A stretch of DNA of 64,000 nt, taken from assembly GCA_001972305.1 (NCBI GenBank), contig BDDD01005171.1:1-64000 (forward strand), read 5' to 3'. Shown piece after piece: positions 7,138-41,690 of the stretch (the first letter of the stretch is position 1; the number at the start of each line of letters is the position of its first letter). Both the position numbers and the translations under genes were made by a program. Source of the stretch: Cephalotus follicularis (lineage: Eukaryota > Streptophyta > Magnoliopsida > Oxalidales > Cephalotaceae). The notes under the pieces were generated by a model that saw only the letters and a program-made list of their open reading frames with translations, was not told the DNA's origin and did not search any database.

Positions 7138-8640
7138 TCAAACAAACAAGTGCGGATATCGCTCCCGAATATGCTCCTCGAGCTCCCAAGTAGCCTCACG
7201 TTCGGGATGATTCCTCCACATCACTTTTACAAAAGAAACGGTCTTGCTACGTGTCACCCGTTCCTGTCGATCCAGAATAGCCTCAGCCTCCTTGTCATAA
7301 GATAGATCCTCCCGAATACTATCCAACAGATAGTGAACTACATGAAGGGGATGATACTGATAACCCCTCAGCAAAGACACGTGGAACATGTTATGGACAT
7401 GTGCTAACTGCGGAGCCAAAGCTAACCGATAAGCAACCGCGCCAATCCTCTCTAGAACTTCGAAAGGCCCGATAAAACGTGGACTCAATTTTCCTTTCAG
7501 CCCAAAACGTCGGACTCCTTTCCAAGGTGAAACTTTCAAGAACACATGTTCACCCACCTTGAACTCCAAATCCCTCCGATGTCTGTCTGCATAACTCTTC
7601 TGTCGAGACTGAGCTGCTTTCAATCACTCCCTTGCTATTGCCACTTTCTCCATAGTGATCTACACTAGCTCGGGTCCCTCAATAACTCGTTCTCCAACCT
7701 CATCCCAAAATGTCAAAGCACGACACTTCCTCCCATACAGAGCTTCAAACGGAGCTATACCGATACTAGCATGCCAACTGTTATTGTAGGCAGACTCCAC
7801 CAAGCTCAAATACTTATCCCAACTCCCAGTCCACTCCAAAGCACAAGACCTCAACATATCTTCTAAGGTCTAGAAGGTTCTTTCAATCTACCCATCTGTT
7901 TGTGGATGAAAAGCTGTACTGTAACTGAGCCTAGTACCCCAAGCTTTCTGAAACCCTTTCCAAAACCGCGAAGTGAAACGAGGATCCCTATCCGAAACAA
8001 TGGATACCGGAGTCCCATGCAGTCTCACTATCTCCTGCTGAAACACTTCAGCCAAACTATCAACCGAAAACTCCTCTCGGATAGCTAAGAAGTGAGCCGA
8101 TTTAGTCAATCGATCCACTACTACCCAGATAGCATCATTCCTCTGAAAGTTCTCGGTAAACCCGTAATGGTATCCCATTTCCAAACTGGAACTTCCGAGG
8201 GTTGTAACAAACCACTAGCACGTTGGTGCTCAATCTTTACCTGCTGACAGATCAAACACTTCCCAACGTACTCCACAACATCCCTTTTCATTCCATTCCA
8301 CCAGAAGTTCTTCTTCAAGTCTCTATACATTTTTGTAGAACCCGGATGTATGGAAAATGGAGAACTGTGTGCCTCTGACAAAACAGCATCTCTGATAGAA
8401 GAGTCTGCTGGAACACACAACTGATTACCCAGCCATATCACACCATGCTCATCCATACGAAACTCTGATTGCTTACCCTTTTCAACATTCTGGACTAAGG
8501 CCCAAAGTTCACCATCGTCACTCTGAGCTATCTTAATCCGAGATATAAGAGTAGGCTCAACATTCATTGCAGCAATACAACCTTCAGAACCCCGAACATA
8601 CAGATGTAAATCCATCCGCTCCATATCGGCTATCAACTGC
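7138..8640 (-). pseudogene. int: R2 integrase with C-terminal chromodomain, broken
   Basis: Read from 8640 down: zinc-binding N-terminus ([19 protein letters not shown]), catalytic core ([31 protein letters not shown]), the C-terminal GPFEVLERIG and HNMFHVSLL region, and a chromodomain-like end (FVKVMW...EATWELEEHIRERYPHLF). Integrase inserts the cDNA; the chromodomain is known to direct chromoviruses to heterochromatin. Breaks: the MDF residues holding the first catalytic Asp are missing after KWDTIT, one base is lost before NDAIW near 8135-8150, CAG became TAG at several places (after FHPQTDG, before TLED, after ELV), and CGA became TGA before LKAAQS. Confidence 0.9.
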
Positions 8641-10540
8641 GACTGAGTAAGCAAAGCCGCTACACTCCCAGAACTCTTCCGACTAAGAGCATCAGCTGCC
8701 ACATTTGCTTTACCATGATGGTACTGAATATTCAGATCATAGTCTTTCAGAAGTTCCAACCATCTTCTCTGACGCATGTTCAACTCTATCTGCATAAAAA
8801 TGTACTTGAGACTCTTATGATCAGTAAAGACATCACAAGTTTCTCTGTCCAACTAGTGCCTCTAGATCTTCAACGCAAACACCACTGCTGCCAACTCGAG
8901 ATCATGTGTAGGATAGTTCACTTCGTAAGGCTTCAACTGTCTCGAAGCATAAGCTATCACATGACCACGCTGCATCAAAACACACCCCAAACCCTTTTTA
9001 GAAGCATCACTGTAAATCTGGTATCCACTCGGCCCAGATGGTAAACGAAGAATCAGTGCTGACGCAAGACCATTCTTCAATTTCTCGAAGCTTGCTTCTC
9101 GCTCCTCATTCCATTCGAACTTAGCTCCTTTCCTCATAAGCTGAGTTAGTGGTAAGGCTATAGAGGAAAAGCCTTCCACAAACCGCCTATAATATCCCGC
9201 CAAACCCAGGAAGCTCCTAGCCTCCGTCACTGTGGTAGGTCTCGGCCATTTAGTAATAGCCTCAACTTTAGCAGGATCCACACTAATCCCTTCAGTTGTA
9301 ACCACATGACCCAAAAATGCCACCTGTTCCAACCAAAACTCACACTTTGAGAACTTCGCGTATAACTGATTCTTCCTCATAATACCCAGCACAATGCAAA
9401 GTTGCTTTTCATGCTCTTCCTTAAACTTGGAATATACAAGAATATCATCTATGAACACAATAACAAAGTGATCCAAGTACTCATGGAACACCCTATTCAT
9501 CAGATCCATGAAAACTGCCGGTGCATTAGTGAATCCGAAAGGCATCACCAAAAACTCATAATGCCCATACCGAGTACGGAAAGCAGTTTTAGGCACATCT
9601 CCATCCATTATACGAAGCTGATGATATCCCGATTTCAAATCGATCTTCGAGAAATACCGAGCACCTTGGAGTTGGTCAAACAAGTCGTCAATCCTAGGTA
9701 GCGGGCATTTATTCTGAACAATAATTCGGTTCAACTCTCTGTAGTCTATGCATAACCTCATAGTCCCGTCTTTCTTCTTCACAAACAAAACCGGTGCACC
9801 CCACGGTGAAACACTAGGACGAATGAAACCCCGATCCAACAGTTCTTGCAACTGTTCTTTCAACTCTTGCAGTTCCAACGGTGCCATTCTGTAAGGTGCC
9901 TTAGATAAAGGTGTCGCTCCAGGAATGAGTTCGATGGTAAACTCCACTTCTCGTTGCGGTGGAAAACCCGGTAACTCCTCTGGAAACACATCAAAAAATT
10001 CTCTAACCACAGGATAGTCCTCAAGGCGTGGCTCAACCCTTGAGGCATCCTTCACAACAGCTAAGAAACCTTCAGCACCCTTAGCTACCAATTTTTGAGT
10101 TTTCAGAGCAGATATAACTTTCACTTCTTTTCTAGGCTGTGAACCCTGATAAACAAAATCAGCACTATTCACATCCCCAAACAGAACCCTCCGAGCATTG
10201 CAGTCGATCATAGCCTGATGACGATCCAACCAGTTCATACCCAGAATAATATCAGAGTCATACATATCGATAGGCAAAAGATCCGCATCACAAACCCGAT
10301 CATCAAAAACAAGAGGGCAAACATAAAAACACTCATATATCACAACAGAAGAACCCGTAGGTGTTGAAAGAACATAAGCTGGATCAAGCAATTGTGAAGA
10401 CATCCCAAGATGCCGAACAAAAGACCTTGCTACAACTGAGTGAGTTGATCCGGTATCATATAAAACATAAGCCCTACGGTTACCAACATAAATAAAGCCC
10501 GAAACAGTACCTGGTGCGTTAGCAGCCTACTGAGTCCTGA
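8641..10540 (-). pseudogene. pol: R2 protease, reverse transcriptase and RNase H
   Basis: The longest surviving pol frame runs 10403-8862 (513 codons). Protease has DTGSTHS and the distal ILGMNWLD motif; RT has the FIDD active site near 9447-9458 and the [10 protein letters not shown] thumb-side motif; RNase H has [19 protein letters not shown] and TDHKSL. Two stops fall where relatives have WRHYL: Trp codons became TAG near 8854-8862. RT itself reads through without a break, so this domain decayed less than its neighbours. Confidence 0.9.
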
Positions 10541-11826: not shown

Positions 11827-13574
11827 GCAATATAGAACCTATCATAACATATCTGATCATATACATAACATATCTAATCAAATCATTACTTTATTAGCCA
11901 ACAACGTGGCGGTCTAATCATAACTGAAACATTAAAAACTTAGCAATTAAATCATTTCCGGAAAGACTTAAACATATCCAAGTTCCAAATTTAAAACATA
12001 AAAAACATAAGTATCATTGTTTATGGCCACTAGACATAACATAGGGATCACACTCCTAGGGATCCAAAGACATAGGGTAGTCATCTCTCGTTCACACATT
12101 TCCCCGCTGCTCCCAATAACCTGCCGAATGGAAAACAAAAACGCGGTTGAGCAAACCTCAGTACGGATAAGGGAAACAAAACAGTAAACAATAAGTTTAA
12201 AAGCAGTAAGATTCATAACAGAAATCTTAAGTAATTAAAACAAATAAATAATCGTAAAATCACATTTGTACTTTCATAAAATCCATATAACTTTCGAAAC
12301 ATTTATGAAGCATTTCATAGAATCATTTATGAATCATAGGTCATACTGAGCCACATACATATCACATAACATAAATTTGGCAAGGGAGGCGCTAATTCCA
12401 CATGCCCATTAGAATTGAAGTGTACGGCACTACACAAGTCAATTCTCACATATCACATATCTGATCACACCTCAGATCACATATCATAAACTAGAGTCAA
12501 TTCATACGCCTCTATCATACATAGCGGATCCATAAATCCGCCTCATAGGATTTATTCATAACACTCAGAGGCGTCGTAGACTAATCACACCGCTACGAAA
12601 GTGTCACGTCCCCGTGCCAGGCCTACGACGTGCCTATGGTACACCTCATAGGTGGGTACAATACTCAGTATTCAATTATTACGAAAGCATTGATTTATCA
12701 AAATCAATTTAAAAACCACATAAAATATGGTTTCACAAAACATATCGGAAAACCGCTCACAACGGTATCATAACATACATTTCATAACCCAAATTATCAA
12801 CTCATTTATACTTCGCTATAAAGAGGTGATCATATCGTAACATATCGTATCATTTCATATCATATGCATAAAGTAGGAATCATTTAACAATGTCAAACCA
12901 ACTTCATTTTCGAAACATGTCAAAACCATAAAACATTACCAAGTTCGTAAACGAAAAAGCATAGCAAAACTGTTTCAGTTCGAAATTCAGATAGCCAAGG
13001 AAATGATAGAAATCCGTACAATGTTCCTAAAGTAAAAATATCTTTTGTTTACTATAGTAAAACTGATAGGAGGGTATCAAGAAACGAAAATCCGTACCTT
13101 ATGCGTTCACAATGCTCTTACGGATAAGTGATTCAACAAACTCCACTTGAAGCACAATAATCTAAAGACACCCAAAATCATACATATAAGAGTCTAGGAC
13201 ACATCAAAACCATTATACAGACTCATTACTCTGTTTGGAGAAGACCCGGATCGATTCGAAGAACAAACGGATCAAAACAGTTGAAAACAATACATTTCTG
13301 GGCAAAACAGTCGACTATTACAGAGCACCAGCCGACTGGGGAAGCTTGGCAGTCGACTAATCACAAGGTCCTGTCCACTACTCAAACCAGAATGCAGACA
13401 GTCGACTGGTTCATAGATCCAGACGACTACTCAACCCAAGACAGTCGACTGCGTTCATATGGTAGTCGACGGCACATCCAATCCAGCCGACTGTCCACAG
13501 GAAAAGCCGACTGTTCTGGATGACAGAACAGTAGTAACATGACAATTTCAATACAAAAAATGGTTCAAATGATT
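11827..13574 (-). repeat. R2 5' LTR, gag-proximal part; terminus and primer site deleted
   Basis: Aligned by eye to R1 and R3, about 50 bp covering the primer site and the last bases of the LTR (GGTGTTACA side) are missing near 11826, so reverse transcription could not start from this copy. The part kept holds the shared core (12378-12671), two TACGGAT-type units near 13010-13100 and the phased palindrome array. The LTR continues at 21921 beyond N1. Confidence 0.85.
13309..13512. repeat. Phased AGTCGACT array in R2 LTR
   Basis: Sites begin at 13309, 13330, 13351, 13372 (decayed, TGTCCACT), 13400, 13421 (AGACGACT), 13443, 13464, 13485 and 13505. The steps are 21, 21, 21, 28, 21, 22, 21, 21 and 20 bp. 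Variants are mostly AGCCGACT. Confidence 0.85.
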
Positions 13575-13579: not shown

Positions 13580-13844
13580 TATAATATCCCATTTTCGTAT
13601 AGATTTTCGGGGTTTTCGATATGTTTCGTATGGGCTGTCGATTTTTTTCGGTTTGTGGACTGCCCATTTTTCGGTTTGTTTTGCTTTTGGCTAGGCTAAG
13701 CGGGTTTTGGCCTTAGCCTAGTGGGTTTTGATATTGAGTCTATGAATTAATAAAATAATTTTTGGCTTTTAATGTATTTGTTAAAAACCCAATTTCAGCA
13801 TTTTTAGAAGTCAAAAGAAACCTCATTTTATGTTCCGTCAGTGC

Positions 13845-14295
13845 AGATATGGCACCGGCGAAGACACCGGTCGAATCCCCACAGCCTCCTGAGTCCACCG
13901 GTCCCAACCCCTGTACCGGCCGACGTCTCCAACGGCGTGCGGGGTGACTTCTCTTTCCGAATCTGTTTGGCGTCGATTCTCCCTCTCCGTTGATCGGCAC
14001 GACAAACCAGTCACATATTCGGCATCCTGGCGACGAGAGGAAGCGAACCCGACCGGCCTCGACCCTTGGCGACACCGGAAAAGCAGATCGGCGTAAGTCA
14101 AGCCGCGGTCAAACGTCTTCATTCCGGCCAAATGCGGCGATTTCAAGGCAAATGCGCCTCAGATATGGAATCACCGGCCTCAAACGGTCCAGATCGGCCC
14201 ATTTTGGAGACTGACCGGCGGCGCGTGAGCCCACGCGCCGGCGACCCTCCGGCGAGAAATTTTTTTGGACTATTTCCGACTCCGCTCTTCGCATA
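13845..14295. other. GC-rich island in N1 LTR, origin unknown
   Basis: A sharply GC-rich block, rich in CCGG and CGGCG, lies inside an AT-rich LTR; the 3' LTR has it at about 18965-19445. Short frames are open on both strands (61-111 codons) but none is conserved end to end between the two copies and none was recognised. It could be a captured host 5' exon, since in the 3' LTR a CT-rich run and an ATG precede it, or an LTR regulatory island. No domain was seen. Confidence 0.5.
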
Positions 14296-14722
14296 GGTGT
14301 GATCCGCTCCAGTTCCGCGATGTGATTATGGCTCTGTGCGCTGTTTCAACTGCTTTCGGTAAATTCTGAACCCTGCTCCGTTAAATTCTGTTTTCAGTTG
14401 AATTATGTATTTATGTAATCGTTTTACGATATTATGAGCTGAACTAGTGTTATGATTCGAAATTGGATGAATTGGACAAATTGGACTTACCTTAGCGAAT
14501 CCAAAATTATGTTTAGATGACAATTTTGCGATTGGACGTATTAAACGTGTTATTATCTTATATGGTCATGATTAGTGTATAATCACCCATGAGTTGAGGT
14601 CTGATGTTATTTCAAGTCCTTATGAGAACGATTTTATTTCTGTTAGATGTTTGCAACAACCGATGAGCGGTCTAGAGAAGTCTCGATACATATTCTTGAG
14701 GTTGTTTTGGTGATCGCACAAG

Positions 14723-15260
14723 GTACAGATTTTTCGTTCCTTCAAACACTCCTATTGTTTTATAGTAAAAGAATAGTTTTACACTATGGATAACGTAAGG
14801 ATCATTCTTTCTTTGGCGCTCTTATCAATTTTATTTGAGTAAAGTCAATTTTACTATTTAATGATTATGTACGGATTCTCTTTGCTTTGGATTTCTCTGT
14901 CGGTTTTGTTTAAATGAATTCAGTTTTATTTGAATCGAATATGTTGTTGAAATGTACGGATTATTCTTTCGTTCTTGGATACTCCATTCGATTTTGTTTG
15001 AATAAAGTCGGTTATGTTTTTGTACGGATGTTTCGTTCCTTGATATCTCTTTCGGTATTGTTGGGATAAATTCGGTTTTAATTTTAGTAAATGAAGTACG
15101 GATGTCCTTCTTTCTTTGATATCCTTCTGATTTTATTTGAGATAATTTCAGATTCTGTATTTGGTATGGATCTCATTTCTTGGTTATCATCGATCGGTTT
15201 TTGATTGAATAAAACCGTTTTATTGCCTAATTGATATGTACAGAATTTTCTGTTCCTTGG
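14723..15260 (+). repeat. Eight-unit TACGGAT tandem repeat in N1 LTR
   Basis: Units start with GTACGGAT or near variants at 14723, 14795, 14869, 14954, 15022, 15096, 15164 and 15238, with steps of 72, 74, 85, 68, 74, 68 and 74 bp. Each continues with a TTCGTTCCTTG-like run and then an inverted pair of the CGGTTTT/AAAACCG kind, able to form a hairpin. The 3' LTR has the same set. R9 has about three such units, R2 two, R1 and R3 one. Confidence 0.75.
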
Positions 15261-15510
15261 CCATCTGACATTCAAACTGAAAGTCTTTTGATAAGCATCT
15301 TCGTTTATGAAATCAACGATGTTTTACGACTTTGACATGTTTCGCAATTAAAGTTGGTTTGATATTGAAATTATTCCGACTTTATACATATGATATGTTA
15401 TGAAATGAATGTTATGATACCGTTGTGAGCGGTTTTTGAATATGTTATGCGAAAACATATGTTATGTGATTTTAAATTGATTTTGATAAATCAATGATTT
15501 TGAAAAGAAT

Positions 15511-15816
15511 ACTGAGTATTGTACCCACCTATGGGGCGTACCATAGGCACGTTGTGGGCCTGGCATGGGGACGTGAAACTTCCGTAGCGGTGTGATTAGT
15601 CTACGACGTCTCTGAGTGTATGAACAAATCCCATGAGGTGGATTTGTGGATCCGCTATGTATGATAGAGGCGTATGAACCGATTCTAGTTTATGTTATGT
15701 GATCTGAGGTATGATCAGATATGTGATCCGAGCTGTGATCGGATATATGAGAATTGATTGTGTAGTGCCGTACACTTCAATTCTAGTGGGCATGTGGAAT
15801 TAGCTACTCCCTTGCC
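15511..15816 (+). repeat. LTR core shared by R1-R3, N1 and R9
   Basis: About 300 bp from ACTGAGTATTGTACC to CTCCCTTGCC. Recognisable copies lie at 4053-4361, 12378-12671 and 25961-26227 (minus), and at 20663-20968, 54341-54510 (partial) and 58735-58985 (plus). It holds an inverted pair CCTATGG/CCATAGG around GGCGTA and two dyads at 15702-15720 and 15726-15744. It is far better kept than the rest of the LTRs, so it probably carries a function such as promoter, RNA processing or packaging; that is inference. Confidence 0.8.
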
Positions 15817-16767
15817 ATATGTGATCAGATGTGTGATCATGTTATGTGATATGTTATGTGGTTCAGTATGGAACTTATGTTTTGAAAAGATTTGTCATAC
15901 GTTTTGAAAGTTATGGATTTGATTTTTATGAAAGTTCATATGTGACTTCAAAGAATGTTTAAACTGATTTATTGCTTAAGATTTCTGTTTTGAGTTAACT
16001 TTGAAATCTTACTGTCGTGAAATTATCGTTTATCGTTTACTGCTTTGTTTTGTTCCGAAATCTGTTTGTTTCGTAATGTTCAGAAACTGTTTTCTTTTGC
16101 TCCGTAAATTGTTCTATTCTGTTTCGTAGAGTGTTTCCTTTCGTAAAATGTTTTGTACCGTATAGTGTTTGTTTCAGATACTATATTGAGTATGATATTG
16201 TTCTGTTTCGGATACTGTTTCGTTTTGGTAAAATGCTTTGTTTTGGATACAGTTTTGTTTCGTTTTGTTATGATTCGTAACTATTCTGTTTTGTTTCGTA
16301 ATTGTTCTATTTTGATTTGTATCTGTTTTGATTCGTATTTATGTTGTTTCGTTATTGATTTGTTTCATAAACTATTCGTAAACTGTTTTATGATTCTATA
16401 TCTGTACTAAGGTTTGCGCAGCCGCGTTTTTGTTTTCCATGCGGCAGGTTTTCAGGGACAGCATGGGCAAGTGTGATGAGAGAGTTACCCTATGTCTGAG
16501 GATCATCTAGGAGTTTGATCCGGTTATATTCTTAGTAGTGTTATGGTCGTGTATAGGCTAGTTATCTAAATAGTATTGTGATTTTGGTTTATGAAAAAGT
16601 TTTCAGTTTATGTTTCATGATTATACATGTTTTCAAATTTTTAGAACCGCCACGTATTGATGATGATTAAGATTATGATCTTTGATATGTTTTTAGTTCA
16701 GTTTTGTGTGACACACCAATCCCGAATCGGGAGTGATCCTGGTTCCGAATCGGGGGTGTTACAGCTA

Positions 16768-16778
16768 TGGTATCAGAG
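16768..16778 (+). other. N1 primer-binding site
   Basis: TGGTATCAGAG, four bases after the 5' LTR end; initiator-tRNA-Met type, as in the coding elements. Confidence 0.9.
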
Positions 16779-16938
16779 AATAGATTTTTCTTTCCTTAGA
16801 AGACCTATCTAGGTTTGTCCTGTGAGATGGGTAGACATTTGGGTTTGGGCTATTCCTTAAGAGTCGTTTCGGTATGTTCCTTTGTATTCCAGTTTTCTGT
16901 CTCTCTTTGTTTTACTTCGTTTCTATTTTGTTTCTTTG

Positions 16939-17031
16939 ATGACACAAAGAGTCGGACGACTAAGGAATGTTAATTTGGAAGCTGACTCAGCTGTTTCACA
17001 AGAGGATGCACGGTATGAGCCAACTGTATAG
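16939..17031 (+). pseudogene. Possible gag start remnant in N1
   Basis: A 30-codon frame starting MTQRVGRLRNVN lies where gag begins in R1-R3, about 160 bp after the primer site, following a T-rich run and preceding YEPTV and a stop. Its position and the RLRN/RTRN likeness suggest a relic of the gag N-terminus kept with the packaging leader. The likeness is short, so this is tentative. Confidence 0.35.
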
Positions 17032-17190
17032 CGATTAAAAGACCGACTGAACAAGCCGTAATGCTATGCGATCGATCGAATGGGCCGAAAAGTATAAGGG
17101 TTTGTCTGAATAGCTTCCATATCGAATAGTGGTTGATCGAGATAGAATATGAATGGTCATTGTGAATGGATAGTGTATGGATGGCTAGTG

Positions 17191-17400
17191 TATCGTTATC
17201 GATTGCATCGTATCGTTAAGGACCGTTATTGAACAGATCGTGATCGTAAGGACCATTGTTGAACGGTTAGTGATCGTGTGACCCGTTATCAAATGAATAG
17301 TGATCAAATGGATCGTTATTGATCAGACAGTGATCAAATGGGTTGTTATTGAACGGTTAGTGATCGGATGGACTGTTATTGAATGGGTGGGCATTGCATG
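17191..17400 (+). repeat. 30-bp minisatellite in N1 internal region
   Basis: Six successive units of exactly 30 bp (17221, 17251, 17281, 17311, 17341, 17371), each of the form GAYCGTTATTGAACGG + TTAGTGATCRRATG. A weaker seventh is at 17191. The units differ at many positions but none differs in length. It replaces gag-pol sequence. Confidence 0.85.
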
Positions 17401-18100
17401 GATGCTCGAAATAGTTTGTGAATGAACCGATGTGACAGTTAACTACTTATATATGCTGGTATGGGACAATATATGTATTTAGTCAGCCACTCGATGTCAA
17501 CTACATATGGAGTTTACCTCTGCATTCCTAGTGGAGTGCTATATGGCTATGAATCATAAACGGATATGGATTGTAAATGGATATGGACCGCAAACGGATA
17601 TGAAATGTAATAGATATAGCATGGTCATGGTTTGATATGGATAAAAGGTTTGGATGATGACATATGGTGGAGTTACTGATGATAGGTTGTGTTATGGCTT
17701 ATATGGAAATGATATGACATTGTTCACATTTTTTTATGCTAGATATGCATCTCACATGATCGATTTTATATATATCTGCTACACCTCTGCACACATTTAT
17801 TGCTTATGATACTGAATATGGATTTGGTTATATGGTTTGTGAAGAGTACCTTTTGATTATAAACTAAACTGTATAGATTTATGATACTTGTTATGTATAA
17901 GAGGTAACTAAAGAGATATGTTTATTCAGTTATCGACCTGCCAACATGTGGCAGTGCTTATGATATGTGTGTTGATGTATTGGATATGCATGAGTTCATA
18001 CTTGAGAGATTGGGATGATGATTTGGACTTAAATTGTGGTTTACTGAGGGCTGAGCCCATTTATAACTGATTGTTCCTCCTTTGGGAGTGTGGATATAAA
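17401..18100 (+). other. N1 internal non-coding region
   Basis: AT-rich, with many ATATGGAT-like words (17570-17660). No gag, protease, RT or integrase motif in any frame. Origin not recognised. Confidence 0.6.
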
Positions 18101-18114
18101 TTGTGTTTTCTTGA

Positions 18115-18465
18115 CAGGGGGCATAAGTCCGATAAACGAATACTACATGCCCAATTTTCGGGAGATTATAAGAGTTAGAATGTACTCAATTGATTATTTC
18201 ATTGATATGATTATCATTTGCATGGTTATATTAGTATTGGATATGATTAAGCCAATCTTTGAGAGTATTGAAAGGACTATCCTTCGCGTGTAAATGGTAT
18301 ATTTGATTTAGTTGTGATGTAGTCTGGTGCGGGCTGAGCCCCAGTAAATAGATTATGATGAGACATGAGAATTGATCTCCAAACATATAAACTGTGGTTT
18401 ATCAGGTGGCATGGAGTCCGATAAACGAATACATCATGCCCGATTTTTGGGAAATCCTAAGAGTA
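18115..18465 (+). repeat. Diverged direct repeat near N1 3' end
   Basis: A block of about 60 bp at 18119-18178 (GTCCGATAAACGAATAC, then ATGCCC and GGGA) recurs at 18409-18465 with about ten differences. Each copy lies near the words GGGCTGAGCCC (18048-18060, 18326-18340). It occupies the region just before the polypurine tract. Confidence 0.65.
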
Positions 18466-18596
18466 TGGTTTGTAATGGTTATCCATACTGTTTTACATAT
18501 GGTTTGAGGTTTTCGCTGATACGATATGGTGTGTTCCATAGGGATAATCTGTTTGCTTCAGGTTAGTAGTTGTTTAGATTTTGGGACGAAATCTTT

Positions 18597-18612
18597 TTAA
18601 GGGGGGTGGAGT
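18597..18612 (+). other. N1 polypurine tract
   Basis: TTAAGGGGGGTGGAG next to the 3' LTR, after the TTTTGGGACGAAATC signature that also precedes the 3' LTRs of R2 and R9. Confidence 0.85.
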
Positions 18613-21600
18613 TGTAATATCCCGTTTTCCGTATAGATTTGTGGGCTTTTCGATATGTTTCGTATGGGCTGTCGATTTTTTTTGGTTTGTGGACTGCCCA
18701 TTTTTTGGTTTGTTTTGCTTTTGGCTAGGCTAAGCGGGTTTTGGCCTTAGCCTAGTGGGTTTTAATATTGAGTCTATGAATTAATAAAATAATTTTTGGC
18801 TTTTTATGTATCTGTTAAAAACCCAATTTCAGCATATTTAGAAGTCAAAAGAAACCCCATTTTATGTTAAAAATTGTTTCTCTCCCACTCACTCTCTCTC
18901 TCTCTCTCTCTATCTCTCTGTCTCCCATTCTCTCTCCCCTCTCACCTGCTGTCGTCACCGTCAGTGCTGATATGGCACCGGCGAAGACACCGGTCGAACC
19001 CCCGCAACCTCCTGAGTCCACGGGTCCCAACCCCTGCACCAACCGACGTCTCCAACGGCGTGCGCGATGACTTCTCTTCCCGAATCTGTTTGGCGTCGAT
19101 TCTCCCTCTCCGATGATCAGCATGACAAACCAGTCACATATTCGGCATCCTGGCGACGAGAGGAAGTGAACCCGACCGGCCTCGACCCTTGGCGACGTCG
19201 GAAAATCAGATCGGCACAAGTCAAGCTGCGGTCAAACGTCTTCGTTCCGGCCAAATACGGAGATTTCAAGGCAAACGCGCCTCAGATATGGAATCACCGG
19301 CCTCAAACGGTCCAGATCGGCACTTTTTGGTGACTGACCGGTGACGCGTGAAAGACACGCGCCGGCAAGCGGTGGCGCGTGAGCCCACGTGCCGGCGACC
19401 CTCCTTCGAGAAATTTTTGTGGACAGTTTCTGACTCCGCTCTTCGCATAGGTGTGATCCGCTCCAGTTCTGCGACGTGATTATGGATCTGTGCTCTGTTT
19501 CGACTGCTTTCGGTAAACTCTGAACCCTGCTCCGCTAAATTCTGTTTTCCGTTGAATTATGTATTTATGTAAGCGTTTTACGATATTATGAGCTGAACTA
19601 GTGTTATGATTCGAAATTGGATGAATTGGACAAATTCAACTTACCTTAGCGAATCCGAAATTATGTTTAGATGAGAATTTTGCGATTGGACGTATTAAAC
19701 ATGTTATTATCTTTTATGCTCATGATTAGTGTATAATCACCCATGAGTTAAGGTCTGATATTATTTCAAATCCTTATGAGAACGATTTTATTTCTGTTAG
19801 ATGTTTGCAACAACCGATGAGCGGTGTAGAGAAGTCTCAATACATATTCTTGAGGTTGTTTTGGTGATCGCATGAGGTACAAATTTTTCGTTCCTTCATA
19901 CACTCCTACTGTTTTATAGTAAAAGAATAGTGATACACTGTGGATAACGTACGGATCATTCTTTCTTTGGCACTCTTATCAATTTTATTTGAGTAAAGTC
20001 AATTTTACTGTTTAATGATTATGCACGGATTCTCTTTGCTTTGGATTTCTCTGTCGGTTTTCTTTAAATGAATTCGGTTTTATTTGAATCGAATCTGTTG
20101 TTGAAATGTACGGAATTTATTTCGTTCTTGGATACTCCATTCGATTTTGTTTGAATAAAGTCGGTTATGTTTTTGTACGGATGTTTTGTTCGTTGATATC
20201 TCTTTCGGTATTGTTGGGATAAATTCGGTTTTGTTTTAGTAAATGAAGTACGGATGTCCTTCTTTCTTTGATATCCTTCTGATTTTATTTGAGATAATTC
20301 CAGATTCTGTATTTGGTATGGATCTCATTTCTTGGTTATCATCGATCGGTTTTTGATTGAATAAAACCGTTTTATTGCCTAATGGATATGTACAGAATTT
20401 TCTGTTCCTTGGCTATCTGACATTCAAACTGAAACTGTTTTGATAAGCATCTTCGTTTATGAAATCAACGATGTTTTATGACTTTGACATGTTTCGCAAT
20501 TAAAGTTGGTTTGCTATTGAAATGATTCCGACTTTGTACATATGATATGCTATGAAATGTATGTTATGATACCGTTGTGAGCGTTTATCAAATATGTTAT
20601 GTGAAAACATATGTTATGTGATTTTAAATTGATTTTGATAAATCAATGATTTTGAAAAGAATACTAAGTATTGTACCCGCCTATGGGGCGTACCATAGGC
20701 ACGTCGTGGGCCTGGCACGGGCACGTGACACTTCCGTAGCGGTGTGATTAGTCTACGGCGTCTCTGATTGTATGAACAAATCGCATGAGGTGGATTTGTG
20801 GATCCGCTATGTATGATAGAGGCGTATGAATCGATTCTAGTTTATGTTATGTGATCTGAGGTGTGATCAGATATGTGATCCGAGCTGTGATCGGATATAT
20901 GAGAATTGATTGTGTAGTGTCGTACACTTCAATTCTAGTGGGCATGTGGAATTAGCAACTCCCTTGCCATATGTGATCAGATGTGTGATCATGTTATGTG
21001 ATATGTTATGTGGCTCAGTATGGAACTTATGTTTTGAAAAGATTTGTCATACGTTTTGAAAGTTATGGATTTGATTTTTATGAAAGTTCATATGTGACTT
21101 CAAAGAATGTTTAAACTGATTTATTGCTTAAGATTTCTGTTTTGAGTTAACTTTGAAATCTTACTGCCTTCAAATTATCGTTTATCGTTTACTGCTTTGT
21201 TTTGTTCCGAAATCTGTTTGTTTCGTAATGTTCAGAAACTGTTTTCTTTTGCTCCGTAAATTGTTCTATTCTGTTTTGTAGAGTGTTTCCTTTCGTAAAA
21301 TGTTTTGTACCGTATCGTGTTTGTTTCATATACTGTATTGAGTATGATATTGTTCTGTTTCGGATACTGTTTCGTTTTGGTAAACTACTTTGTTTTGGAT
21401 ACAGTTTTGTTTCATTCTGTTATGATTCGTAACTATTCTGTTTTGTTTCGTAATTGTTCTATTTTCATTCGTATCTGTTTTGATTCGTATTTATGTTGTT
21501 TCGTTATTGATTTGTTTCATAAACTGTTCGTAAACTATTTTATGATTCTATATCTGTACTGAGGTTTGCTCAGCCGCGTTTTTGTTTTCCATGCGGCAGG

Positions 21601-21915
21601 TTTTCAGGGACAGCATGGGCAAGTGTGATAAGAGAGTTACCCTATGTCTGAGGATCATCTAGGAGTTTGATCCGGTTATATTCTTAGTAGTGTTATGGTC
21701 GTGTATAGGCTAGTTATCTAAACAGTATTGTGATTTTGGTTTATGACAAAGTTTTCAGTTTATGTTTCATGATTATACATGTTTTCAGATTTTTAGAACC
21801 ACCACGTATTGATGATGATTAAGATTATGATCTTTGATATGTTTTTAGTTCAGTTTTGTGTGACACACCGATCCCGAATCGGGAGTGATCCCGATTCCGA
21901 ATCCGGGGTGTTACA
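18613..21915 (+). repeat. N1 3' LTR (3303 bp)
   Basis: Begins TGTAATATCCCG and ends GGGGTGTTACA. It matches 13580-16763 along its whole length except for a CT microsatellite block (18866-18960) and a GC-rich segment near 19340-19370. Two short peptides with Leu/Ser runs (18864-19116) come only from the CT repeat. Confidence 0.92.
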
Positions 21916-21920: not shown

Positions 21921-22990
21921 ATTAAACCAGAAGCACAAGGACATAAACATAGGACATAATATGGCATTTAGATGCTAAAAGAACACAAAATTGATAGGAA
22001 AACAGTTGGACAGTGGCTTAACTTCTAAGGGAGACAAGAAAACATGCATACACATATGTCCAGATTTTGTCCATTATCATTTGCGGACTTTTAAAACCAG
22101 ATTATGACATGTTCAAGGTGTATAAAACATGTTGACAGTCTTACCAATACTATGACAGAACATATTAACATAGGAATTGAAACCAAGGACAGTAGGAATA
22201 TAAAACTGACATTATAACACTGAAACAAAACCATCACTGAACGGAACGAATTTAACTAACCTGCAGTGATTACCAGGAACACAAAAACACAGCAAGAACG
22301 CTCCAATTAATTTTTTAACTGGCTGTACACAGGAGACCAAAGAGAACAAAACCAAGAGAAAAGTATAGAACTTTAAACCAATCAAAGAAATCCAACCAAA
22401 GGACAACAGGAAATTGAGATTACCTTGACAATCTGATGCAATGAATCCACAGCAGATTAGCAAAGACTCACAAGGCAGAATTCGGCTGTGGCTTGCAAGA
22501 AAGAGAGACACACATATAAAAATGGCAATGACACTCTCCAAAAGGAAAAGGAGAAGACAAAATCTGCTCCAAAAAGGAAGAAGAGGGAACGAGAATCGGC
22601 TGAATAAGGATATTGGAGATTGAAAACGTGTGAGAGTAATGAGGGGAGGGAGAGTTCGGGGGAAGAAGGGAGAAGAACAGGAAAGGAAGAAAGGAAAAAG
22701 AAATAAATAAATAAATAAAAGAAATAAAAGGAAATAATTAAAATAAATGAAATAAAATGATTTTTAAAATAAGAAAAATTGTTTTAATATAATAAAATGT
22801 TGATAAAATAACAATAAACCCAACCCAATATTGCATAACATATCCAAAATTCGGACTGATATCAGTCAGCCCAAATCACATAAGCCCAAAACATAGGGCA
22901 ACCGGACTTTTAAAAATTAACAAAATTAAAAGTCCAAAAACAAAAACATAAAAGTCCGTAAAAACACATACGAACAAGCAGGGTATTACA
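21921..22990 (-). repeat. R2 5' LTR, outer part
   Basis: Continues the LTR interrupted by N1 and ends GCAGGGTATTACA, i.e. TGTAATACCCTGC on the minus strand. Beyond it RT sequence of R3 resumes at once. The LTR without N1 is about 2.8 kb. Confidence 0.9.
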
Positions 22991-25378: not shown

Positions 25379-26439
25379 CAATCTGGAACACTCCCGGATG
25401 GCGGGAGTCATCACAGGTCGTAATGCAGAATCTATCAAAACATAACATAACATATCTGAACATAAACATAACTTATCAGCCAAAACATGGCGGTCATAGC
25501 ATAACTGAAATCTTAAAAACTTAACAATTTTTGAAAACTTAAACATTTTCCAGTTCAAAACTAATAGATATGTTACTTATTGTTCATGACCACTAAACAA
25601 AAAACATAAAGGGATGACACCCCTAGGGATCCAAAACATAAGGTGGTCATCTCTCGTTCACACATTTCCTCGCTGCTCCTGATAACCTGTCGCATGGAAA
25701 ACAAAAACGCGGCTGAGCAAACCTCAGAATGGATAAGGGAATTAAAATAGTAAACGATGAATTTTAAAAGCAGTAACATTTCAATAAAAATCATAACAGG
25801 AATCTTAAGCAATTAAAAACAATTAAATATTCGTAAAGTCACATTTGTACTTTCATAAAATCCATATAACTTTCGAAACTTTTAAGAAACATTTCAAAAC
25901 ATCATATCATGATTCATAAGACATACTGAGCCACATACACATCGCATAAATATATATTTTTCAAGGGAGGCGTTAATTCTACATGCCCACTAGAATTGAA
26001 GTATACGGCACTACCAAGTCAATTCTCACATATCACATATCATATACTAGAATCGATTCATACGCCTCTATCACATAACGGAACCATAAATCCACCTCAT
26101 GGGATTTATTCATAACATTAAGAGATGTCGTAGACTAATCACACCGCTACGAAAGTGTCATGTCCTCGTGCCAGGCCTACGACATGCCTATGGTACGCCC
26201 CATAGGTGGGTACAATACTCAGTATTCAATCATTTCAAAAACATTGATTTATCAAAATCAATTTAAAATCACATAAATGTGCTTTCGCAAAACATATTTG
26301 AAAACCGTTCACAACGGTATCATAACATATATTTCATAGTCAAAACACCAACTCATTTATGCTTCGCTATAAGGAGGTGATCATAACATATCGTAACATA
26401 TCGTATCATTTCGTATCATAAAGTCGGAAACATTCATAA

Positions 26440-26992
26440 ATATCTGTTGACGATTAAGTCTCAATCCTTGTTTTGATGATAACATATTTGCATCTAACTA
26501 AGTTACTTGATGTGCAAGGAATTACAAGTTGAATATCAAAGTCTAAAACCATTCTGCAGAAAAAGAAGTCGACTCCTTTCCAATAGCATAGACTCCTTTT
26601 GTAACAGCATTAACTGCAAGGAAAGCATCTACCTCCCAGTATAGAGATCGACGTCCGTACTAAAAGAAGTCGACTACTTCCAGAAGACGTCGACTACATT
26701 AAAGAAGACATCGACTACTTCAGTGAAAACATCGACGGGATTAGTCATTTTTGGAACAGAAGCTACTGTCTGAAAAATGCACTCAAAGACATCGATCCTC
26801 AGAGAAAGACATCGACGTCCAAGAGAAAGACATAAAGTGGACGTAGGCAAGAGTTAGCCGAACCACTCTAAATTTTGGAGAAGTTTTTCTTTCCTTATCT
26901 ATTTACATTTAAAGTTTTTAAATTTCCGCATATTCCTCAATATTCAATTCACCCCCCTCTTGTATATTGCAAGAGTGTTTTATTTCAATATC
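26440..26992 (+). mobile_element. C1: solo LTR, Copia-like, with target duplication
   Basis: 543 bp at 26445-26987, from TGTTGACGATTAAG to GTTTTATTTCA, flanked by ATATC at 26440-26444 and 26988-26992. R1 and R2 lack the whole block, so the empty site is visible. The start (TTGTTTTGATGATAACA) and CACCCCCCTCTTG near the end look like a plant Ty1/copia LTR; the superfamily is inference from style, as a solo LTR has no coding part. It carries its own palindrome array, at 26569-26835. Confidence 0.85.
26569..26835. repeat. Phased TCGA-core array in C1
   Basis: Cores (TCGA or decayed forms) start at 26569, 26589, 26610, 26628, 26648, 26670, 26690, 26711, 26732, then 26792, 26812 and 26832. Steps are 20, 21, 18, 20, 22, 20, 21, 21, (60), 20 and 20 bp. 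Flanks are GAAG/GACA on the left and CTYCTTT/CGTC on the right. Confidence 0.75.
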
Positions 26993-27338: not shown

Positions 27339-27584
27339 AGCCGACTATTACAGAGCACCAGCCGACTGGGGAAGCTTGGCAGTCGACTAATCACAAGGGC
27401 CAGCCGACTACACTAGACAGACTGCAGGCAGTCGACTGTCACATAGATCCAATCGACTGTGCATAACAAGGCAATCGACTTGTTCATAGAGCAGTTGACT
27501 ACATAACACAAGGCAGTCGACTATGTTCATATGGCAGTCGACTACTCATCCAATCCAGCCGACTTTCCATAAGAACAGCCGACT
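27339..27584. repeat. Phased AGTCGACT array in R3 LTR, 12 sites
   Basis: Sites at 27339, 27360, 27381, 27402, 27429, 27451, 27473, 27493, 27514, 27536, 27557 and 27577; steps 21, 21, 21, 27, 22, 22, 20, 21, 22, 21 and 20 bp. Four are AGTCGACT; five are AGCCGACT, two AATCGACT and one AGTTGACT. Confidence 0.85.
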
Positions 27585-28743
27585 GTTCTGGACGACAGAA
27601 CAACAGAAACTTGATATTTTTTATACAGAAACTGGTTCAAATGATTACAACATTCAACCAGTGACACAAGGACATAAACATATATCATTACAGGGCATTA
27701 GATGACACAAAGAAAAAAAATTGACATGGAAACCGTTAGACAGTGGCTTAACTTCAAGAGAAAGAAATAACTCTCTAAGCATATGCATATGTTCAAGTCC
27801 AAATTCTGTCCATTATCACTTGCAAAAATTTAAAACCTAATTATGACATGTCTAGAGTGTTTAAAACGTGTTGACAGGCTTAGTAAAATAATTACAGAAC
27901 ATATTGACAGGGATTGAAATCAAGAGACACTCACAATGCAAAGCTGAAATTATAACAATGAATAAGTGACCATCACAGTAAGAATTACTGACCTGTAATG
28001 GTGTTAAAGACAATGAAAACAGCAGAGGAAACACTACAACATAATCATAAGCGGCTGAACACAAAGACAAAAGGAAACCAAACAAAGAGATACATAAACA
28101 TGCTTAACAAAACAGAGGAATTCAACCCAAAAGAACAACCAAAGGAATTCAGATTACCTATGTAAACTGATGAAACGATTTCACATGGATCAACAAACTC
28201 CAATAACGCAGAAACTCGGCAGTGACAGGCTTTGCAAAGGTGAGAGAGAGAGATAACCCATAACAATGGCCTGGCATTCTTAAACATGAAAGAAAGAGTA
28301 ATTGAGGGATGAATAAGGAAGAAGAGGAGACAAAATCGGGTTATTAAGGAAGAAAAAGATTGAAAACGTGTAGAACTAATGAGGGGAAAGAGAGAGCTTT
28401 GGGAGAGGAGGAGAAGAAAAGGAAAGAAATGAGAAAAAAGAAAGAAAAAGAATAAAAGAAATTAAGAAATAAAATAAAAGAAATAATAGAAATTAAGGAA
28501 TTTTAAAATAAAAAGAAAGTAAATTGTTTTAATAAAATAAGTTGGATTATAATCAAATAAATAAAATCCCAAACCCAACATTGCGCTACATATCCAAAAA
28601 TTCAGGCTAGTATCAGACAGCCCAAATCACATAGGCCCAAAACAAAGGGCAACCGGACTTTTAAAATTAACAAAATTAAAAAGCCCAAAAACAAACACAT
28701 AAAAAGTCCGTAAAACACATTTACGAATATGCAGGGTATTACA

Positions 28744-29556
28744 GCAGCCCCAGGTTCGTCCCTTGTTGCAAGCTATCAGCTCCAAGCTCCCAAGCTCCAC
28801 TGGTTCAACAATGGTGGAACTCCCTCTTCATACTCACTGTTTCTTTCTTTCCTCTCCTTAGGTGTTTTAAACGAGAGAGAGGGGTGGGGATGGGGTTGTT
28901 CTTATGTAGATGGATCCCTCTCCCTCCTCCTCTCTGCACTAAACGAACACTCCCGTGTTCTCTCCCTCTTCCCAATTCAAGTCCTGCATTCTAACTTTGT
29001 TTCCTTCTCTACTTTTGCAGGTTGCATGCATGCTAACACTTGTTACATTCTCCATCCTTCTTCAGTCATGCAGGTCAGGGGGGCTATTATGCATGCCCAA
29101 CACGTCCCACTTCGTGTCCCAAGGTGCTTTCAACAAGCCCAGAATTGCCTCCCTTTGCACATTATTCTGTCACTTCATAACGTGACTGATATCCTTTTTA
29201 AAGACGTCGATGTCTTCTTTAGACGTCGATGTCTTTTCCTCTTTCGTACAAGGGCGTCGATGCCTTCGTCTGCATCGACGTGCATGTGCATGCATTTACG
29301 TGCGCCCCTTGATCCCATAGGCGTCGACGTCTTTACAAAGACATCGATGCGTTTAGCCCAAAACTGCACCGTTTTGCCTCTAATTGCATCTTTTAGAATT
29401 TCTTTAACATCTCCAGCATTCCTCCTTCAAAAATCTAACCTTTTAAATTTTGGAAAGCATCATTTAAGTCAAAATTTATGCCATTGTCATTAACTCAATA
29501 ATAATATTTCAATAAAATTGAAATATTACATCGTGCAAAAATCTTGGGCGTTACAT
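28744..29556 (-). repeat. R4: LTR fragment, R7-like family
   Basis: The minus strand begins TGTAACGCCCAAG at 29556 and resembles the start of the R7 LTR (TGTAACGCCCGG, then GATGTAATATTTC). It carries paired GACGTCGATGTC sites at 29207/29226 and 29324/29344. R3 interrupts it at 28743. No polypurine tract lies beyond 29556, so that edge is an outer element border set in R5 gag. Whether it is a solo LTR or a full element cannot be seen. Confidence 0.8.
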
Positions 29557-33929: not shown

Positions 33930-34284
33930 TTACATATATTCTTTGAATCCATGCATATTGATTGAATCGTATGCTTGTATGGTTATAGATGGATGTAGGT
34001 TAGATGGATGAGTTAGGGTGATTGTTATACTTGATTATTGCTTAAAATGAGAATCAGAGAGAGAATTGAGGGTTATAGGTTTATAGGCCTATTCTATCCC
34101 CTCTCTCTCTCGATTATGGGTTACGGGTATGGATAATAGTGTTTTAAAGATGTTTAAGGTTGTAATCGACCATAGGGGGCTTCTATCTTCCACTGGATCG
34201 AGTTTTAAACGATTTAAATGAATTTAAACTTGTTTTCAATCGATTTTTTGAACTCTTGATGAACTGTCTGCAACCGCCTAACCA

Positions 34285-34512
34285 TCGACTCTTTGATGAA
34301 AAGCGTCGACGCTTGGCGGGTGACCAGTTAATGCTTGTATGCAATTTGTCAACGCTTTTGGATCCGATCCTTAACCATCGACACCTTGCATGAAGCCGTC
34401 GATGCTTTGCTTATGGGATAATAGTCAATGCCTAGTGCAATCGTCAGCGTTTTATGAATTATTAACGCTCTGGATGCTAACTGTCGGTGCTTTGGATGAG
34501 CCAGTCGATGCT
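34285..34512. repeat. Phased TCGA-core array in R5 LTR
   Basis: Cores at 34285, 34306, 34328, 34349, 34378, 34399, 34425, 34444, 34462, 34484 and 34505; steps 21, 22, 21, 29, 21, 26, 19, 18, 22 and 21 bp. The best site is AAGCGTCGACGCTT at 34301. Others are CGTCGATGCTT, TGTCAACGCTT and similar decayed forms. Confidence 0.8.
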
Positions 34513-35345
34513 TAGCACCCTGTTTTCTACAAAATACATTGTTTTAAACCATTTTTCAACCCCAAATGTTTTTATCTTCAAATCGGTTCCATAGGAAGCC
34601 TCCCTAAGGCCGTGTAACCTATGTGAACCCTTCTTTAAAACAAATGATCTTCAAATCAATCTTCAAAAAGGGATTTTCAATGAGGTTTTCAATAAATGGT
34701 TATGTTAGTTCGATTGGGATGTTTGGACGTGAATATCGTTGTTGGGCTTCCTCTCCATTGTTTTACAAACTCTAATAGGGACCAATAAATGGTTATGGAA
34801 ATGGCTATAGAAATGGTTTTGACGGATGGATCTCATGTGATCCTTTATTGTTAGGTCCTAATCCTTTAAATGGATATATAGTCATGGTGTATGATTGATG
34901 CTTGCTATTGTTTGAGACCTGATGAGATAACCCATTCATAATCTTCATTCCCATCATGAAGATTAGGGTGTTAGACCACATCATATGGGGGTTACAGAAC
35001 CCCACTTTAGGGGTGGACCTACGGGGACCATCGCATTGTGGGCGGACCATTGAGAATATCGCATCATGGGCTGCGACCATTGTGAACAAGCCCTATCATA
35101 TCGTTGGCTGGGACCATTGTGAACAAGCGTTATCATATGGATGATGTGGTCAGCGTTATCTCAACCCCACTCTGCTACGACCCCAAAAAGGTTGGTAGTC
35201 GGTGGTAGTACTATCTTGGGCCGGAGAGGCAGAGTGTAATGACCAGAAATTTTGATTGATAATGTTAAGAAGTATGTTCTTTTACTTGGTTTCTTGTTTG
35301 CATCATGTTTTATGTTGAAAACATCATTTACAGGGGATTAAAGCG

Positions 35346-35690
35346 TCAACGATATAGTTTTAAGCGTCAGCGCTTAGCCTTAACAATGTAACGGATGCTT
35401 CTAACGTTAACAAACCAAGACAAAGTCACCTAAGCGCGGAAGGTTTATTAAAGCGGCGACGCTTTGAGGGTAAACCATCGATGCTTGGACCTCTTCCAAC
35501 GCCGGTTAAAAATAGAGGGTTTTCAATTTGGACAAACTCCTCCAACCGACGACGTTTCAACTAAAGCGGCAACGCTTGGATGAAACCAACGACACTTAAA
35601 TGTAACCGTCGATTATTTGAAGTCAAGCATTTCCAGTCGACTTGGACGAAGCCCGTGAGCGACGACGCTTGGAAGTGAAGCGCCGACGCT
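35346..35690. repeat. Phased TCGA-core array in R6 5' LTR
   Basis: Consensus AAGCGTCGACGCTT. Well-placed cores are 35346/35367 (21 bp), 35456/35478 (22), 35549/35569/35589/35609 (20, 20, 20) and 35662/35683 (21). Many have one arm changed, for example AAGCGGCAACGCTT. The 3' LTR has the matching set near 60370-60720. Confidence 0.75.
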
Positions 35691-40263: not shown

Positions 40264-40435
40264 TGTAACGCCCGGTATTTTCCTGGATGTAATATTTCGT
40301 TTTATGATGTAATCATTTAACTTGATTTAATGAGAATGTCGACTTTTGAACTCAAAAGATGCTTGCAAACCCTATCTATGGACTTGGAAATGGAATGTGT
40401 ATGTTAAAGCTTGAAACGGCAATGTTCTGGGACAA

Positions 40436-40593
40436 AGACATCGACGTCTTTGGAAAAGACGTCGACGCCTTTGGGAGCCAGAGCACACGTGTTTGAAGGG
40501 ACATGCACGTCGATAACGGAAGAAAGCATCGACACCTTCTTACCAAACTGGAAAAGACATCGACGTCTAAGGAAAGACGTCGATGCCTTTGTA
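40436..40593. repeat. Paired AGACRTCGACGTCT palindromes, R7 5' LTR (cluster 1)
   Basis: TCGA cores at 40441, 40462, 40510, 40529, 40560 and 40580: three pairs with 21, 19 and 20 bp between partners. Flanks are AGAC(A/G) and CG(T/C)CTT. Confidence 0.85.
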
Positions 40594-41102: not shown

Positions 41103-41559
41103 GAAAGTGATGGATTTATTTATGCATTTTGAGTTCTAAGTTAATTTATAGCATGGTGAATTGCATGTTAATGATTGGATTGAAATTCTGGACTTGTTGT
41201 AGTGTTACTGTGATACACTGAGTTAAGCTTGCATGTATGTGTGCATGAATACGTGAATCTGTCGTGTAAAAGATTGATTTAGAAATGGCTGGGTGTGTTG
41301 AAATCATGGAAAACACGTTCTGGGTTGCAAAGACATCGACTTCTTTCCTGGGAAATTGTATGAACTATAATATTCAGATGGCCATTTTAGCCACTTGGGA
41401 TCGCCTGTTTAGTTTCAATTTGATGTTATGGATGTGTATCTATTAACCAGTAGCATACCCTATACGTTTATAGAGCAATATTCGTTTATATGATGGATTA
41501 AAAGGTTGGTTTCTACCCTCTAGAAGCACGACTCACGAACTGGTACTCCCTGGTATGAA

Positions 41560-41690
41560 AAAGACATCGACGTCTTTGTAAAAGACATCGACGTCTTTGG
41601 GTCGTATACACCTGGAAATATTTGTATACAGGATTTACGCTTTAGGCTAAAAGACATCGACGCCTTAGGAAATGACATCGACGTCTTTCC
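41560..41690. repeat. Paired AGACRTCGACGTCT palindromes, R7 5' LTR (cluster 2)
   Basis: Cores at 41567/41588 and 41657/41678, each pair exactly 21 bp apart. In the 3' LTR the first pair is a single site (near 48021), exactly 21 bp shorter. Confidence 0.88.

Follow-up and report, generated by a model that had tools for sequence, protein, structure and literature searches.

TCGA-centred palindromes on a 21-bp lattice in the long terminal repeats of Ty3/gypsy chromoviruses of Cephalotus follicularis: candidate binding rows for a sequence-specific protein

Long terminal repeats (LTRs) of several retrotransposon families in Cephalotus follicularis carry rows of short palindromes, all centred on TCGA and repeated about every two turns of B-DNA, and the question raised by such rows is what keeps both the sites and their step. 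The rows were analysed in a stretch of 64,000 nucleotides (contig BDDD01005171.1, positions 1 to 64,000; the window) and in the wider genome. Three site types were distinguished, namely a-type, AG[T/C]CGACT (AGTCGACT-like), b-type, AAGACRTCGAYGTCTT-like, and c-type, with AAGCGTCGACGCTT arms and the site AGCGTCGACGCT. With up to two mismatches to AGTCGACT allowed, the array R3 at 27339-27584 (minus strand), in an LTR with the start TGTAATACCC at 28743, has 12 a-type sites with steps of 21, 21, 21, 28, 21, 22, 20, 22, 21, 21 and 20 bp. Three further a-type arrays are R1 at 4880-5040 (minus strand; 8 sites, steps 21, 21, 21, 27, 22, 21 and 20), R2 at 13309-13512 (minus strand; 10 sites, steps 21, 21, 21, 28, 21, 22, 21, 21 and 20), whose LTR was later split by an element referred to here as X, and R9 at 57891-58094 (plus strand; 10 sites, steps 20, 22, 20, 21, 21, 29, 21, 22 and 20), whose LTR ends with GTGTTACA at about 59355. 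These four arrays were found where the sequence-only reading of this DNA had placed them, mostly with steps of 20-22 bp and an occasional step of 27-29 bp, which is present in all four and placed after site 4.

In both R4 and R7 the b-type sites form short runs, of 4-5 sites each, that are set apart by longer gaps, a weaker pattern than the sequence-only reading had given. R4, at 26645-26835 on the minus strand, lies within the R3 LTR (five sites at 26649-26733, steps 22, 20, 21 and 21), in a stretch (about 26434-26986) without a match in the R2 LTR when the window was compared with itself. Another b-type run, at 29200-29364 on the minus strand, belongs to an LTR fragment homologous to R7 with its start, TGTAACGCCC, at 29555. 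The 5' LTR of R7 has two b-type slots on the plus strand, 40424-40590 (LTR positions 179-318) and 41330-41690 (LTR positions 1074-1416), and the 3' LTR, starting at 46697, has the same slots at 46860-47020 and 47765-48125 (plus strand), the sites of the latter being listed but not called as an array in the three-type scan. Weak c-type sites were found in R5 at 34281-34512 (no strand assigned; up to 4 mismatches in 12), in R6 at 35342-35690 (plus strand; its LTR has the start TGTAATGACC at 35235, and a partner copy is located around 60393-60720) and in R8 at 52787-53100 (minus strand; LTR start TGTAATGACC at 53392). Neither R5 nor R8 was called as an array in the three-type scan, and the sole c-type run in the window to pass it comprises three sites at 60467-60508. 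The earlier assignment of arm types by lineage was upheld for the a-type sites of R1-R3 and R9 and for the b-type runs of R4 and R7, but it is weak for R5, R6 and R8, whose AAGCGTCGACGCTT-armed sites have numerous mismatches and long gaps.

A chance origin of these arrays was considered and rejected using shuffled sequence and other cores. Spacings of 20-22 bp separate 23 pairs of TCGA-core dyads in the window; when its 1-kb blocks were dinucleotide-shuffled 30 times, the mean was 0.5 such pairs and no shuffle gave more than 3. The excess recurs at 41-43 bp (10 against 0.2) and 62-64 bp (8 against 0.3). A 200-kb sample was drawn as 20 windows of 10 kb at fixed 75-kb positions (one step omitted) from two contigs, C128 and C191, each chosen as it has one R3-like match; 3,762 of its 200,000 letters are N. 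Here TCGA pairs numbered 57 at 20-22 bp and 5.25 at control distances, and among the other 15 palindromic 4-mer cores the runner-up, AGCT, gave 7 against 3, leaving only TCGA in excess. Scanning the sample for the three site types yielded 34 arrays in 14 of the 20 windows, and none in five shuffled versions or for eight other cores with the same arms; the b-type motif had been fixed after viewing sites of the same data later scanned, and the shuffles and other cores therefore serve as its control. Across the 1.577-Gb assembly, exact AGTCGACT triples numbered 35,726 against 131 for the reversed pattern, and pairs 107,493 against 336. This confirmed that the TCGA palindrome arrays are real and genome-wide.

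The step itself is narrowly set. Over the window and the sample, a-type distances numbered 24 at 20 bp, 65 at 21 bp and 18 at 22 bp, with one at 23 bp, none at 15-19 bp or 24-26 bp and 13 at 27-29 bp; b-type distances within 19-23 bp averaged 20.6 bp (n=61), the c-type mean being 20.8 bp (n=30). The variance of the distance spanned by one, two, three and four steps was 0.55, 0.74, 0.73 and 0.61 (n=116, 78, 40 and 19), where independent steps would predict 0.55, 1.10, 1.66 and 2.21, and adjacent steps were correlated at -0.31 over all chains and at -0.19 in 39 genome triples. The chains used share descent, and a few ancestral ones may inflate the full-set variance result, so that permutation of the non-duplicate, non-nested chains is the more trustworthy test; in this small set (11 of 38 chains) the observed variance was reached in 33, 14 and 20 of 2000 permutations for two, three and four steps. 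The mean span of four steps is 84 bp, or 21.0 bp per step, which is two turns of B-DNA. The steps compensate, keeping the sites on a 21-bp lattice. Apart from the recurrent 27-29 bp step of a-type arrays, a recurrent 31-bp step was seen in b-type runs (window and L029-L048); 31 bp is about three turns and 28 bp a non-integer number of turns.

A step of 21 bp had also raised the thought of 21-nt small-RNA biology, the arrays being a host silencing or small-RNA signal in the form of 21-nt phased or hairpin-like sources or of sites for the silencing machinery. A palindrome-rich LTR region of maize Sireviruses is indeed given as a hotspot of small-RNA mapping in the available part of one account (PMC5311732). 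However, a 21-nt register would be interrupted by the common 27-29 bp step, none of the short palindromes has a loop, palindromic arms with compensating steps would be unlike the traces expected of dicing, and it would be unexpected for an element to conserve the sites of its own silencing over the spacers. We therefore regard this explanation as very improbable, and that part of the sequence-only reading is not supported.

The spacers speak to whether the lattice is merely inherited from a tandem repeat. Within R1, spacer identity was 0.25 against 0.24 when shuffled, in line with the claim that spacers of one array do not resemble one another; for R2, R3 and R9 the claim holds less well, their values of 0.33, 0.36 and 0.41 against 0.25-0.26 being somewhat above chance, part of which is due to the outer C and G of the palindrome. 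In 39 genome triples, kept from 50 listed on the plus strand after 11 near-repeats were dropped, 63 distinct spacers collapsed at 3 mismatches to 44 types, and 24 spacer 13-mers had a mean identity of 0.381 against 0.366 shuffled. A young or diverged minisatellite was rejected, since the spacers are almost unrelated and fail to align as one unit, and the earlier statement that the arrays are not a young tandem repeat stands.

Array units nevertheless show tandem gain and loss, although they are not a minisatellite. Gaps of 42 and 44 columns between lineages correspond to whole units. From 40 places listed for an LTR flank, 20 copies were fetched; one (L062) did not match and 19 were aligned, L066 and L068 over 71-87 bases only, yet these two were counted in the percentages given below. 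Eleven of the 19 lacked exactly 20-21 or 41 bp and one had 43 extra columns, five were free of gaps of at least 3, and two aligned badly. Such whole-unit changes are what would be expected of an old 21-bp tandem repeat whose register is maintained through slippage and unequal exchange, the palindrome then being a functionless by-product of exchange where similarity is highest, and gain and loss of whole units would by itself keep a rough 21-bp step too, a point that weighs against binding rows. Set against an old repeat are the near-unrelated spacers, the compensation between steps, about the same step in b-type and c-type sites of other sequence, and the persistence of sites across lineages whose spacers are much diverged. 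An origin of the lattice in repeat turnover of this kind appears improbable to us.

The last of these points comes from comparison between lineages. In all six pairings of R1, R2, R3 and R9, site columns were 81-91% identical and spacer columns 43-82%, and this conservation holds although every site contains a CpG. Within the R3 family the difference vanishes: among the 19 flank-fetched copies sites differed at 15.6% and spacers at 16.1%, and CpG decay was 17% at 11 site CpGs against 15% at merely 3 flank CpG columns. In copies fetched by the array (28 of the 40 R3-like places scored among 4501 candidates in the genome), decay had been 10% for 12 CpGs in sites and 39% for 6 in flanks, which could be taken for current selection on CpG retention in inserted copies, but these 28 had been picked by array similarity and the contrast, which we count as a retrieval effect, was gone in the flank-fetched copies; the claim of CpG protection was therefore dropped. 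As within-family sites are kept no better than spacers, an ongoing function of old copies finds no support. Selection in replicating lineages followed by neutral decay after insertion appears the best explanation of these alignments, so that the past selection suggested earlier from surviving CpG-bearing sites is retained between lineages and given up for the time after insertion.

The CpGs are also unevenly placed. In R1, R2, R3 and R9, 36 of 40 sites are CG-centred and the spacers hold 2 CpG where 27.5 would be expected. In the three-type scan, 139 of 152 a-type sites are CG-centred (the scan itself requires three of the four core letters). Over 20 a-only arrays the observed/expected ratio of spacer CpG was 0.19 (12 CpG) against 0.59 in the flanks; in samples of equal size from the flanks, where C and G are scarcer, the mean was 23.6 CpG and the lowest count 9. 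This depletion suggests methylation-driven loss near the sites or selection against extra CpGs. It would also suit a special case of binding rows, in which the arrays are anti-silencing targets as in VANDAL transposons and a co-evolving protein removes or blocks LTR methylation, arms and protein changing together; the targets of VANC are described, in the parts available of two accounts, as tandem non-coding motif arrays varying among related elements (PMC5735166, PMC10398659). The CG-centred sites and CpG-poor spacers favour this special case, but with 12 CpG against a flank mean of 23.6 the depletion is moderate.

The form of the site was considered next to its spacing. Position 3 is T or C at 25:12 in R1, R2, R3 and R9 and at 122:93 in the flank-fetched copies, and the mirror position stays A. 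Arm pairing exceeds independence at offset 3 (84% against 46%) and offset 4 (48% against 30%) and hardly does so at offsets 2 and 5-8, among sites preselected to pair at one or more of the offsets 2-4, so that the pairing is inflated. The palindromic arms suggest a two-fold symmetric reading by the candidate protein; strict dimer symmetry would not be required, as position 3 may be T or C while its mirror stays A.

Known stress factors of the CBF/DREB type might be such readers, since the full site types contain RYCGAC and cold or drought factors could then drive the LTR. One source gives RYCGAC, in its available part, as CBFHV, the CRT element of barley (PMC4482647), and the R3 variants AGCCGACT and AATCGACT remain within it. 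The match is partly built in, as any R-TCGA-C site matches RYCGAC, and a further R3 variant, AGTTGACT, lies outside it; moreover, the phase and the lineage-specific outer arms would be left unexplained. It seems improbable that CBF/DREB factors account for the arrays. Decay of the CG would yield TTGACT, which might presumably be read as a W-box, a mere idea on our part.

We then asked whether arm types belong to whole LTRs or change within them. The LTR of locus L032 opens with TGTAACGCCCGG, like the R7a LTR, and matches the latter at 71-77% in pieces over R7a positions 1485-2741. A further piece, over 794-877, matches at 76%, and elsewhere none was found. The a-type centres of L032 lie at 168-309 and 1153-1359, and the b-type sites of R7a at 179-318 and 1074-1416; no b-type site was found in the 1,966 bases of L032 scanned and no a-type site in the R7a slots, one a-like match lying outside the slots at the same thresholds. 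By sequence comparison, then, homologous LTRs carry different site types in the same two slots, an arm switch seen in one well-anchored LTR pair. L032 (8035-10000) together with L069 (1-564) is probably a solo LTR with two a-type arrays, AGATT being seen by eye on both sides.

Other loci with two runs were either all a-type (L030, L033, L043) or b-type with some c-type calls (L031, L038, L041, L042, R7), and by eye no mixture of a-type and b-type was found among them, most being without anchoring to an LTR start. Two exceptions were noted: the run of L038 at 3542-3809 has one a-type call among b-type sites, and the R3 LTR carries a separate b-type run (26645-26835) beside its a-type array, a point against binding rows. 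A change of arms in two slots at once, in the pair L032/R7a, is what co-evolution with an anti-silencing protein would lead one to expect.

Whether such a protein could be encoded by the elements themselves depends on their coding content. The window elements are Ty3/gypsy chromoviruses with Pfam matches for gag, protease, reverse transcriptase, RNase H, integrase, SH3_Tf2-1 and chromodomain. In the R1/R2-type element, a protease-reverse transcriptase frame lies at 8862-10526 on the minus strand (RVP_2, RVT_1, RT_RNaseH_2, RT_RNaseH), and SH3_Tf2-1 with the chromodomain, the Ty3/gypsy chromovirus mark, at 7138-7623 on the minus strand; Chromo (PF00385) comes after SH3_Tf2-1, and an integrase H2C2 match was obtained too. 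On the minus strand the R1 LTR extends from 7083 to 3489 (about 3.6 kb), and after it, at about 3482, comes TGGTATCAGAG, which we take to be a usual plant primer site. The chromovirus assignment follows from the chromodomain with pol proteins and the primer site after the LTR; the long LTRs only suggest the Tekay lineage for the array-bearing chromoviruses. Among the best 120 of 8,000 relatives scored for the R2 protease-reverse transcriptase frame, the top one is from Cucumis melo and many of those named are from Asteraceae, for example Tanacetum and Mikania.

Around the R1 LTR, gag starts at 3312, about 170 bp from the primer site at 3482, and the chromodomain frame stops 55 bp short of the LTR start, so that neither the interval from primer site to gag nor that from chromodomain to LTR has space for an additional gene. 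An LTR-encoded protein was also considered and rejected, as neither a Pfam match nor a usable ATG was found for the frames 6310-6855 and 22212-22763, and the first ATG of the frame 28045-28461 comes only at codon 59; all three frames start in pyrimidine-rich tracts. This shortage of space counts against anti-silencing arrays with their own protein, and the likeness to VANDALs proposed by the sequence-only reading holds as an analogy, in that the arrays differ among relatives, but not for gene content. Such an anti-silencing role is in our judgement rather unlikely. With no space for a gene besides gag-pol, a host factor is the more likely binder around the R1 LTR.

Three groups of LTRs were recognised by their starts: TGTAATACCC for R1-R3, joined by R9 on similarity, with mainly a-type arrays; TGTAACGCCC for R7 and its relatives, with two array slots; and TGTAATGACC for R6 and R8, with weak c-type sites. 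The reverse transcriptase stretch between the R7 LTRs has 66% protein identity to that of R2, and that of the R6 element 57-61%, its protease having 35% over 83 residues; arrays thus recur in families with diverged pol.

Several features of these LTRs were recorded in passing. The start TGTAATACCC occurs twice in the R1 LTR, at 7083 and 6220 (window 5587-7083), as by an old tandem duplication of the first 0.9 kb. Element X (13582-21915), inserted in the R2 LTR, is a non-autonomous LTR element with a short internal part and LTRs at about 13582-16763 and 18613-21915 that are 94-95% alike; it is flanked by ACCAC on each side as judged by eye, although the left end has lost its TG and a scripted test accordingly found none. 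The second half of its LTR is in common with R1/R2, and no array was called there. Near the end of the R7 3' LTR (49012-49753) are two 369-bp tandem copies that are 100% identical, despite R7 LTRs only about 96% alike, pointing to a recent duplication or an assembly effect. A donor-like AAGGTAYGGAT lies between array and LTR end in R1 (3489-5040, minus strand) and R9 (57890-59355, plus strand), and R1 also has an acceptor-like GCGGCAGGTTTTCAG, a pattern that would fit splicing of the leader.

Taken as a whole, the comparisons make it likely that the arrays are binding rows for a sequence-specific protein approaching one DNA face, selected in replicating Ty3/gypsy chromovirus lineages. The one-face protein of the sequence-only reading is well supported at the level of sequence by site conservation, the register of about 21.0 bp, compensation between steps and the differing arms of L032 and R7a. 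The putative protein, probably as a dimer, would occupy sites two turns (21.0 bp) apart in long LTRs, and cooperative side-by-side binding of neighbouring proteins would account for the adherence of every site to the lattice. The arrays may help LTR transcription, as an enhancer or by keeping silencing away, with selection presumably working on replicating copies and inserted copies left to decay neutrally. TATA boxes gave no transcription start in the LTR comparison; R6-type LTRs have a TATATATA-like stretch after the sites, and the arrays could lie within the transcribed leader. A bolder proposal, which we put forward tentatively and think possible more than probable, is that of a chromovirus LTR code, in which phase-locked cooperative arrays would be read by a protein family of varied palindromic specificities round a constant TCGA and lineages would escape or compete by switching all their arrays at once, with over 100,000 site pairs in one genome.

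A very abundant group of plant retrotransposons carries rows of palindromes spaced by two turns, putative protein docking rows with a lineage-specific preferred site, which touches on the open question of how genome-filling plant LTR retrotransposons get expressed in silenced chromatin. We found no report in the open-access literature searched of the two-turn lock, its Ty3/gypsy setting or the arm switch. With a single step and two arm types, an array of constant core and lineage-specific arms is a ready bait for the binder, and LTRs whose corresponding slots differ in arm type are a natural experiment on the co-evolution of site and binder. Should the binder be a host factor, more than 100,000 exact site pairs would be a major sink for it.

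Among known systems, the 21-bp repeats of SV40 and HTLV-1 are helically phased homotypic enhancers and resemble the present arrays in that sites recur within a promoter or LTR at intervals of about two turns; they differ in their few copies, in the factors bound and in having no lineage-wise change of arms. Sunflower Tekay elements are plant chromoviruses too, and one group of them encodes in a 5' frame an additional, conserved protein that bears a nuclear localization signal (PMC11728184; elements with an additional frame also in PMC12844716), but at the R1 LTR the interval from primer site to gag is too short for such a frame, and arrays are not mentioned in the available part of the former source. 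VANDALs share tandem arrays of short motifs in non-coding DNA that vary among relatives, and VANC target arrays contract and expand and differ between related VANDALs (PMC5735166, PMC10398659). In contrast, VANDALs encode VANC, for which the one LTR surveyed, that of R1, leaves no place, and palindromes spaced by a fixed helical step are not described in the available parts of these sources.

The closest known kind, as far as the available text of PMC2829016 goes, is the palindromic LTR motif array of the Ty1/copia Sireviruses, which carry, for the most part in the LTR, 8-32 copies per element of a short palindrome with arms that vary between elements and divergent flanks. At least 8 LTR-clustered palindromes per element is a number reached here by R1, R2, R3 and R9 (8, 10, 12 and 10), and two of the 13 Sirevirus motifs listed, CGGTCGACCG of a Vitis element and ACAATCGATTGT of Tnd-1, are themselves centred on TCGA (PMC2829016). 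Twelve of the 13, all but that of Tnd-1, bear a CGG-CCG signature, and the motifs form CpG islands just upstream of the TATA box (PMC2829016). In contrast, the sites described here, AG[T/C]CGACT, AAGACRTCGAYGTCTT and AAGCGTCGACGCTT, are without the CGG-CCG signature. No conserved TATA was seen after the array in R1-R3, and the R6-type LTRs have the TATATATA-like stretch mentioned above. Thus, while both kinds are rows of LTR palindromes, those reported here belong to Ty3/gypsy chromoviruses rather than to Ty1/copia elements and are set on a 21-bp lattice, of which the available Sirevirus text (PMC2829016) makes no mention.
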